Source of the DNA: a virus | Strand: one strand, 5' to 3' | IMG/VR virus record: IMGVR_UViG_3300025666_000035 | Span: 1-28,477 of that record | Length of the DNA: 28,477 nucleotides | In this document: piece after piece, positions 23,420 through 25,769 of the stretch | Position numbering within the stretch: position 1 is the stretch's first letter | How the letters are laid out: every line of letters starts with the position of its first letter | The notes under the pieces: model-generated | What the model saw: the letters and a program-made list of their open reading frames with translations, nothing else | What the model was told of the DNA's origin: nothing | Databases searched by the model: none | Position numbers and translations under genes: made by a program

Positions 23420-23453
23420 AAAAAAAAGGTGCAAGTTAAAAACTCACACCTTT
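23420..23453 (-). terminator. Intrinsic terminator-like hairpin after the SSB gene
   Basis: On the minus strand AAAGGTGTGAGTT pairs with AACTTGCACCTTT (13 bp with two wobbles) around a 3-nt loop, followed by a run of about eight T. It is 14 bases after the SSB stop and 13 bases before the ATPase ATG. It should raise SSB mRNA relative to downstream genes. Confidence 0.85.
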
Positions 23454-23467
23454 TAAAGTTAGGCTAA

Positions 23468-23773
23468 TTAAAATGGTAAGTCATCACTTGCTGGTTCTGC
23501 CACTGCTTGTGGTTGATCATCTCTTTCAGCAACCGTTACACCATCTGGTGATGACATCCATACCACCTTACCGTTTCCAAGATAGTTTTTAGCAACCTTT
23601 GCTTCTCTTTCTTCTTTGGTTTGGCTATCCATAAAAGCTACGTTGTTTCCATACCTAGTTTCATCTTGTATTGCTATTGTGAAATTGTAGTACACCGCGC
23701 CGTCACGACCCTTAATAAATTTTTCTTTTGGTAGTTTATCTACTCTAATACTTCCGTTGATAATTGCACTCAT
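23468..23773 (-). CDS. ssb: Single-stranded DNA-binding protein
   Basis: A 101-residue protein with an OB-fold-like core (IINGSIRVDKLPKEKFIKGR, VYYNFTIAIQDETR, GKVVWMSSPDG). An acidic tail ends ASDDLPF, the DDxPF-type tip by which SSBs recruit replication proteins. It is shorter than host SSB (about 150-180 residues). It would coat single-stranded DNA in replication and recombination. It follows a strong hairpin/pseudoknot candidate in its leader (23792-23821) and is followed by a terminator, an arrangement suited to high and self-limited expression. Confidence 0.8.
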   Translation of the reverse strand: MSAIINGSIRVDKLPKEKFIKGRDGAVYYNFTIAIQDETRYGNNVAFMDSQTKEEREAKVAKNYLGNGKVVWMSSPDGVTVAERDDQPQAVAEPASDDLPF

Positions 23774-23791
23774 AATATATAGTTTAAATTT

Positions 23792-23821
23792 GGTATTGTC
23801 ATTACACGCAATACCTCGTGT
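23792..23821 (-). promoter_or_regulatory. H-type RNA pseudoknot candidate in the ssb leader
   Basis: On the minus strand: stem 1 ACACG (23821-23817), one A (23816), stem 2 GGTATTG (23815-23809), stem 1 partner CGTGT (23808-23804), a 5-nt loop AATGA, then stem 2 partner CAATACC (23798-23792). Both stems pair perfectly and can stack with no gap. It starts one base after the stop of the upstream gene and is followed by an A/T-only stretch (apart from one C) up to the ssb ATG. The layout resembles the T4/T2 gene 32 mRNA pseudoknot, which nucleates gp32 binding for translational autorepression. The stems could also form alternative hairpins. Confidence 0.6.
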
Positions 23822-23822
23822 T

Positions 23823-24197
23823 TTATTTTGTTTTAAAATTAAGAAAATCCATTAAATCTTTTTCCTTTATTTCCTCGTTATTTAAAAAACACTTACCATC
23901 TTCAAAATTATTTTTTTCAAAGGTAATTAAATTTGTTCCATAAAATTTCCAATCTTTTGAAATGCCTTTTTTAATCCATTTATCCAATAATCCAAGCATA
24001 TACCTTTGGTCTGGTTTTACTTCTGCATTATGGCTTTTTAATTCTACAAGCATAATTTTTTTATTTGTTTTGTGCCATAGAACAAAATCCAAATCATAAC
24101 ACCTATACCCAGTATGTGCATCATCTAAATTATTTCTAATCCATTGACTAAAGTATAAGTCATTTTTTCTATTAAATGTATTTTCCTTTTTAGTCAC
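23823..24197 (-). CDS. PD-(D/E)XK-like endonuclease candidate beside a DNA methyltransferase
   Basis: A 124-residue protein. FSQWIRNNLDDAHTGYRCYD is followed by LDFVLWHKTNKKIMLVELKS, giving the D...E-x-K pattern of the PD-(D/E)XK fold. It starts with GTG at 24197, sharing a base with the methyltransferase stop. Stand-alone phage nucleases of this kind are often resolvase-like. The immediate coupling to a methyltransferase also allows a compact restriction-modification-like pair. The nuclease fold is moderately supported and the role is inference. Confidence 0.55.
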   Translation of the reverse strand: MTKKENTFNRKNDLYFSQWIRNNLDDAHTGYRCYDLDFVLWHKTNKKIMLVELKSHNAEVKPDQRYMLGLLDKWIKKGISKDWKFYGTNLITFEKNNFEDGKCFLNNEEIKEKDLMDFLNFKTK

Positions 24198-25381
24198 TAT
24201 ATTAATGCTTTAGCAATATTAAATGTTTTCTCATCTATTTCCGCACCAATTACATTTCTACCTTTTGCTTTTGCCACAATCATTGTTGTTCCACTTCCAG
24301 CAAATGGTTCTAATATTGTATCACCTTTTTTAGTAAACATTTCTATTAAATAAGCAACACCACTTTTACTTTGTTGCCAGTCGTGACCATTCTTTTCTCT
24401 TTGTTCTGAAATAAAATAATCTTGAAATGTATTTTCTATTTTCTTTTTTCCGTTTTGAAATATTAAAACTGGTTTCCATCTGCACATTAAATTTATACCA
24501 TTAACAATTTGTGTTTGACCTTCGTGATAAACCGCAAATGTCCAGTAGTAATCTAAATTCTCACACATTCTTTTCATTACTTCTGGGAGATACATTTGAC
24601 CAGAATAAGCAACACAATATCCATTTGGTTTTAATACTCTTTTTGCAAACCTTGATAGTTTGCTCCAAACCTCAATAAACTCTTTTGGATATGGTGGATC
24701 TGTTATAATGCAATCAATACTACCATCTGGTATGTCTTTAAAAACTTCTTCAAAATCACCTAATCTAAAATCAATTTCAATCTTTTTGTTTTTTCCGATT
24801 TCTGCTAGTCTATCTCTTTCGTTTTCTTTTTCAGCTTTCTTTTCTTCTTTTTTAATTTCTTTATAAGCAGCATTAATACTTACTTCACCAGTTCTTAATT
24901 TTGCTTTTACTTCTTCTGGTGCTTTCTCCTGTATCTTTTTTACTTTAGCAATAGTATCGTGTGAAACTGATGCAACCTTTGATAGTTCTTTTCTTGTTTC
25001 TATAGGTTTACTTTCCGCAGATATCTGCTTAATGTCGTTTCTTTTACCTTGATTTTCCTTTGCTTTTTTACTAAAAACATCTTCAAGTTCTAATGCTAAA
25101 ACACTTCTTTGGTAGTTGCTTAAATTTCTTCTACCAAATTGGTTTAGTATCATCCATTCCTTAACCGCTTCTTCATTATCAAAATGTTTGCTTTCGGTTT
25201 CAAAATCTAAATCCCACCTGGTGGCTATTTCATAACGGTTATGTCCATCTATAATAAAACCATTCCAAGTAAGTATTTTTTCTCTTATACCCTCACTCAT
25301 ACAATTATTTTCTAATTGCTTAAATTCTTCTTTTGTTAAAGGTGGTATTAAATCTTTAAATTCTTGTTTTATTTCTATCAT
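24197..25381 (-). CDS. ParB-like domain fused to a DNA methyltransferase
   Basis: A 394-residue protein from the ATG at 25381. Upstream in-frame starts would overlap the previous gene. The N-terminal part has DGHNRY (45-50), a ParB/sulfiredoxin-type catalytic-like motif, then a helical linker (about 130-205, KELSKVASVSHDTIAKVKKI). The C-terminal part is a beta-class DNA amino-methyltransferase with DPPY (228-231) preceding EPFAGSGTT (358-366). It would methylate adenine N6 or cytosine N4. Fusions of this kind are common in Bacteroidetes phages. The family is very likely; the site and the role of the ParB part are unknown. Confidence 0.85.
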   Translation of the reverse strand: MIEIKQEFKDLIPPLTKEEFKQLENNCMSEGIREKILTWNGFIIDGHNRYEIATRWDLDFETESKHFDNEEAVKEWMILNQFGRRNLSNYQRSVLALELEDVFSKKAKENQGKRNDIKQISAESKPIETRKELSKVASVSHDTIAKVKKIQEKAPEEVKAKLRTGEVSINAAYKEIKKEEKKAEKENERDRLAEIGKNKKIEIDFRLGDFEEVFKDIPDGSIDCIITDPPYPKEFIEVWSKLSRFAKRVLKPNGYCVAYSGQMYLPEVMKRMCENLDYYWTFAVYHEGQTQIVNGINLMCRWKPVLIFQNGKKKIENTFQDYFISEQREKNGHDWQQSKSGVAYLIEMFTKKGDTILEPFAGSGTTMIVAKAKGRNVIGAEIDEKTFNIAKALI

Positions 25382-25382
25382 A

Positions 25383-25769
25383 TTATTTTCTTTTAAAATC
25401 ATCACTTTCATCTTCACCAAATACACCTAACTCGTAGAAACCAGTTAGTTTTAAAACTGATCTTGATAAAGCACGTTTTTCTGCCATTTCCATAACGTAC
25501 CAACTGTTGCAATTACCATCTTTATAGTTAGCACCTTTTAATGCACTACCAAATGTTTCAATTTGTACTTCTTCTTTTTTTGCATATGCTTTTACAACTG
25601 CAAAGTTAGGTTCACATTTTACAACCTCATAATTGATTGCAATGTTTTCTTTTGCGGCAATCTTTTCAATACCTTGTCGTGTGATTATAACATAGTGTTG
25701 ATGTTTGTATACATCGGTTTTTTCAAGTTCATACTTTTTGTACAAATCTAATAATTTTTCTCTATCCAT
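25383..25769 (-). CDS. Possible single-strand annealing protein (Rad52-like)
   Basis: A 128-residue protein. IITRQGIEKIAAKENIAINY, VVKAYAKKEEVQIETFGSAL and the segment WYVMEMAEKRALSRSVLKLT are like a Rad52/Sak3-type annealing core, whose family ends with a MAEKRAxxRxVLKL helix. It sits among NinG, SSB and nucleases. It would anneal ssDNA during recombination. The similarity is by eye and weak. It could also be an unrelated phage protein. It shares an 8-base overlap with the 45-residue ORF upstream. Confidence 0.4.
   Translation of the reverse strand: MDREKLLDLYKKYELEKTDVYKHQHYVIITRQGIEKIAAKENIAINYEVVKCEPNFAVVKAYAKKEEVQIETFGSALKGANYKDGNCNSWYVMEMAEKRALSRSVLKLTGFYELGVFGEDESDDFKRK

Follow-up and report, generated by a model that had tools for sequence, protein, structure and literature searches.

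Locus and leader

We analysed a stretch of viral DNA of 28,477 nt (positions 1 to 28,477 of IMG/VR record IMGVR_UViG_3300025666_000035), here called the window. Its minus strand carries at 23792-23821 the sequence of an H-type pseudoknot of architecture 5-1-7-0-5, that is, a stem 1 of 5 bp, a single A as first loop, a stem 2 of 7 bp, no gap between the stems and a last loop (loop 3) of 5 nt. The pseudoknot lies 1 nt past the stop codon of the upstream gene and 18 nt ahead of the ATG of a gene for a 101-aa SSB-like protein (Table 1). A preliminary description of this DNA had proposed just this structure, and its stem lengths, loop lengths and 18-nt tract, A/T-rich with one C, are exactly as claimed there. 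It had also placed the phage with hosts among the Bacteroidetes, which is supported by homologues of the SSB-like protein in Bacteroidota genomes and in Flavobacterium and Tenacibaculum phages. At the far side of the window, positions 1-1854 hold a 618-aa open frame that runs off the left end; judging by its repetitive content, it may encode a tail or surface protein.

Table 1. Pseudoknot, spacer and neighboring features in the window
Feature	Positions	Strand	Remarks
Stem 1, 5' arm ACACG	23817-23821	minus	pairs with 23804-23808
Loop 1, single A	23816	minus	same base in 14 of 14 distinct versions
Stem 2, 5' arm GGTATTG	23809-23815	minus	pairs with 23792-23798
Stem 1, 3' arm CGTGT	23804-23808	minus	covariation as for 5' arm
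Loop 3 AATGA, unpaired	23799-23803	minus	WWTGA in nearly all relatives
Stem 2, 3' arm CAATACC	23792-23798	minus	covariation as for 5' arm
A/U tract AAATTTAAACTATATATT, including translation start region	23774-23791	minus	17 of 18 A/T; ATG at 23773
SSB-like gene, 101 aa	23468-23773	minus	~75-aa domain, variable linker, DDLPF tip; PHROG 24909
Intrinsic terminator after SSB-like gene	23424-23454	minus	14-pair stem, then T run
Upstream gene, VRR-NUC domain	23823-24197	minus	PF08774, 2.5e-5; not conserved in relatives

Identity of the SSB-like protein

The preliminary description had called the protein a DDLPF-tailed SSB. The acidic P-F tip is confirmed, and the SSB identity is likely, judging from the arrangement of domain, linker and DLPF tip, together with matches to profiles that are weak. 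The protein resembles the bacterial SSB family (PF00436) in its small domain, variable linker and acidic D-x-L/I-P-F tip, but is too diverged for direct recognition; a Pfam search with the 101-aa protein itself gave no match. PF00436 was weakly matched by 10 of 52 members of the protein family (best E-value 2.5e-4), and a profile comparison with 13 true SSBs was colinear over 66 columns, at a weak E-value of 0.08. Two AlphaFold models of mediocre quality (pLDDT 72 and 77) found no match in a PDB fold search. The P and F of the tip are invariant in 38 diverse members while the linker is variable, and one tip reads DDDDDIPF. The homologue in a Flavobacterium phage adjoins genes for an ERF recombinase and an exonuclease. 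Some SSB-like proteins (L047, L066) have an insert around ATKTHLTEP ahead of the acidic tip, and its being common to diverged clades hints at recombination within the gene.

Conservation of the pseudoknot by compensatory changes

The 49-nt leader was put through 5000 dinucleotide shuffles, and no shuffled version reached the pseudoknot score. About four other sites in the window's 57 kb of strand score equally high with the pseudoknot finder, so we regard the case from this single sequence as suggestive, and turn to relatives. A protein search of viral contigs yielded 80 loci, more than 50 of which have the pseudoknot directly before the gene, with differing genes upstream. A pattern search that left the inner positions of stem 2 free matched 66 stretches; all 66 were perfectly paired and all 66 lay before an SSB-like gene. 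With stem 2 wholly free there were 70 matches, of which 69 pair at 7/7 positions and one at 6/7; an SSB-like gene starts directly behind 69 of these, and the remaining one is at a contig end, too short to tell. When instead both arms of stem 1 were left free, 109 stretches matched. Sixty-nine of these were the pseudoknot before an SSB-like gene (counted as such when at least 4/5 positions of stem 1 and at least 6/7 of stem 2 paired), and the other 40 were unpaired chance matches elsewhere. Four of the 69 (L246, L260, L270 and L283) have a new stem 1, AGCAG/CTGCT, perfectly paired, with a diverged relative of the gene downstream. In all, about 75 viral contigs carry the pseudoknot, always before the one gene family (one contig end is too short to tell).

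The preliminary description had proposed looking for covariation among relatives, and both stems do covary strongly. In stem 1, ACACG/CGTGT changes to ACACT/AGTGT, and a wobble intermediate, ACACT/GGTGT, also occurs, such that pair 5 is found as G-C, U-A and U-G. In stem 2, GGTATTG/CAATACC changes to GGTATAG/CTATACC, GGTGTTG/CAACACC and GGCATAG/CTATGCC, with both-side changes at pairs 3, 4 and 6. The unpaired loop 3 varies among AATGA, TATGA, ATTGA and ATAGA. Across 14 distinct versions, 98.8% of cells are paired, and both partners have changed in 7 of the 12 pairs, four of which belong to stem 1 and three to stem 2. The number of independent events is small, pairs 2-4 of stem 1 having changed together in one clade. 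Control values from 500 shuffles, and from slides, never came near that observed. The wobble cells, six in number, are without exception G-U when read on the gene strand; the opposite strand has none, which points to selection on the sense RNA. We judge the pseudoknot to be real because relatives keep both stems by compensatory changes; its structure, and selection on it, are established computationally.

Gene context and spacer

In relatives the upstream genes are of many kinds, and the pseudoknot mostly starts 1 nt after their stop codon. Comparison of 23823-25769 with the corresponding regions of relatives shows the gene before the pseudoknot swapped between phages (a nuclease here, many others elsewhere), and the joints at the pseudoknot are sharp. 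From pseudoknot to ATG the spacer stays constant at 18-22 nt, whichever gene lies upstream and whatever its distance and frame. The carrier spacers average 97.5% A/T, and UUAA or UAAA is present in all of them, as it is in all non-carriers; the A/U tract before the SSB-like gene contains no Shine-Dalgarno-like sequence. Behind the gene, 45 of 45 carriers and 106 of 114 non-carriers have a terminator-like site. With a strong terminator in nearly all relatives, the SSB-like gene therefore usually closes its transcription unit. At its other end, neither a promoter nor a terminator can fit between the upstream stop codon and the pseudoknot, which argues for control of translation.

Loop 3 (23799-23803 in the window; also L010, L058 and L124) often contains AUG. 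In the window this AUG is out of frame with the gene, and the short ORF that it opens stops at a TGA that shares bases with the start codon of the gene. ACACT-type versions whose spacer is 19 nt have this AUG in frame, where it would lengthen the protein by about ten residues. We considered a leader ORF starting at this AUG and rejected it, given ATTGA versions that have no AUG and changes of frame among relatives; since such ATTGA versions occur, the AUG is probably incidental.

Distribution and exchange

The pseudoknot is sporadic, missing in most relatives and sometimes beside nearly identical proteins. At L118 and L079, for example, the proteins differ by one or two residues, and L118 has the pseudoknot while L079 lacks it. 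One SSB-like protein is also found with pseudoknots of different sequence, as would be expected if the fold is what is recognised, and near-identical pseudoknots precede proteins that are merely 60% identical. On a poorly resolved tree built from 157 distinct proteins, the presence of the pseudoknot requires 5-6 changes, and at least four protein clades contain it. Given near-identical proteins with and without it, and similar copies before such divergent proteins, the pseudoknot thus behaves as an exchangeable cassette.

Beyond these contigs, we found no host-genome copy of the pseudoknot in 400 genomes of one Bacteroidota family, no similar DNA among 50,697 records of phage isolates, and no such pseudoknot with the more distant protein relatives (a Flavobacterium phage and bacterial genomes). 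One 28.7-kb contig, IMGVR_UViG_3300025266_000036, has a pseudoknot at either end (L088 and L117), which suggests a terminal repeat or a circular genome.

Comparison with gene 32 leaders and STAXI

The autoregulation of gene 32 is a textbook case, known to our knowledge only from T4-like phages. The gene 32 pseudoknot of T2 has stems of 5 and 7 bp and a single-nucleotide first loop. Applied to other gene 32 leaders, our finder returned 4-1-7-0-5 for T4, 5-1-7-0-5 for RB69 and 5-1-7-0-4 for Serratia phage X20, always with A as loop 1, and returned no pseudoknot for the leaders of CC31 and a Salmonella phage. The T4 gene 32-like geometry asserted in the preliminary description is thus borne out, being identical to that of RB69 and near-identical to those of T4 and X20. 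All share the H-type fold, the single A as first loop, the 7-bp stem 2, the adjacent stems and a last loop of 4-5 nt (5 nt here), and likewise an A/U-rich tract with UUAA or UAAA ahead of the start codon, an SSB-type gene downstream (a likely one here), and sporadic occurrence among relatives. Among H-type pseudoknots, bridging a 7-bp stem with a 1-nt loop is geometrically favoured, so the likeness to RB69 is partly physical.

There are also differences. The 101-aa protein has no detectable similarity to gp32, and a match to the gp32 family was not found for it. The tract is 18-22 nt long here, against 39-45 nt in gene 32 leaders (more than 40 in T4). The phages are those of Bacteroidota, and the leader has no Shine-Dalgarno sequence.

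In T4 and RB69, gp32 binds the leader pseudoknot and represses translation; the T4 operator requires downstream UUAAA/UAAA repeats, some T4-like phages have no gene 32 pseudoknot, and the way in which an unspecific ssDNA binder selects its own mRNA is a standing question (PMC535899, PMC3014915). The gp32 proteins of T4 and RB69 each repress the other's operator, despite its diverged sequence (PMC535899).

Rfam had no match for our leader, either at the gathering threshold or at E-values up to 5, and the gene 32 leaders of RB69 and X20 were likewise unmatched. The STAXI motif (RF01728) consists of pseudoknots close to SSB and other DNA-handling genes (PMC2864571). Our element is like STAXI in being a pseudoknot close to a probable SSB-type gene, but STAXI comprises pseudoknots in tandem, two or three of them and often with UUCG loops, whereas here there is a single one and it has no UUCG loop. 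Our literature searches turned up no earlier description of the element, gene 32 of T4/RB69 and STAXI being the only near matches.

In all likelihood, then, the element would work like the gene 32 operator, yet be no member of that group by descent. The preliminary description had called the resemblance convergent. Convergence is indeed likely, because the 101-aa protein and gp32 show no similarity, with the reservation that a 30-nt RNA cannot prove a separate origin.

A putative translational operator and its alternatives

We favor, as probable, the interpretation that the SSB-like protein binds the pseudoknot as a translational operator and thereby regulates its own synthesis. The leader would fold into the compact H-type pseudoknot, serving as operator of the gene downstream. 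When the protein is in excess over the ssDNA to be covered, it would bind the pseudoknot and then occupy the adjoining 18-22-nt A/U tract, the presumed ribosome landing site, so that initiation is blocked; when ssDNA is plentiful, the protein would depart and synthesis resume. Here we infer binding, spreading and repression from what gp32 does in T4 and RB69.

A broader proposal, for which we would put the chances at slightly less than even, is that T4-like phages and phages of Bacteroidota separately evolved the same 30-nt architecture, in each case as operator for an ssDNA-binding protein unrelated to the other. If so, proteins of this type would have in the fold a general RNA decoy, and the pseudoknot would be a control cassette exchanged among ssb alleles. 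A second case of this RNA geometry, with an SSB-like protein unrelated to gp32, would moreover reveal which features of the fold matter. Direct tests are possible with the natural material at hand, namely pairs of near-identical proteins that differ in having the pseudoknot, and a single protein found with differing pseudoknots.

The main rival to the autoregulation hypothesis is that this is a real cis-acting RNA with another role or a ligand other than the SSB-like protein, one that opens the ribosome site, insulates the gene from upstream genes or acts as a nuclease shield. We consider this unlikely, but it accounts for several observations: the start 1 nt past the upstream stop in most arrangements, behind varied genes, is insulator-like, close relatives manage without the pseudoknot, and near-identical copies precede well-diverged proteins. 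However, insulation would be useful to many genes, while the element is restricted to one gene family and keeps a constant distance to its start codon, and the gp32 precedent shares both the geometry and the kind of gene.

A second objection would be that we are looking at a conserved DNA block, a recombination joint between phage modules in which the pairing is incidental. The abrupt switching of upstream genes while the block persists, and its spread over at least four protein clades, are what such a joint would produce. Sequence-based joints require identity, though, and here changes in the stems are matched pair by pair, up to the replacement of a whole stem 1, with wobbles on the sense strand only; we find this explanation very improbable.

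We give still less credence to the possibility that the RNA adopts a nested structure instead of the pseudoknot. The standard nested fold of the leader is a different, extended hairpin with a minimum of -8.9 kcal/mol, and stem 2 is common to both folds. The three extra pairs of this hairpin, however, never covary and are broken in 2-6 of the 14 versions, whereas stem 1 of the pseudoknot covaries at four pairs. Rough energies, in which the pseudoknot penalty term is an assumed value, make the two folds about equal if coaxial stacking is left out and give the pseudoknot an advantage of up to ~5 kcal/mol if stacking is counted.

Finally, the position of the pseudoknot just past a stop codon might bring to mind frameshifting or readthrough from the upstream gene, but distances vary and, with the upstream gene as reference, the downstream gene occurs in each of the three frames, which excludes such fusions and makes this the least credible explanation of all.
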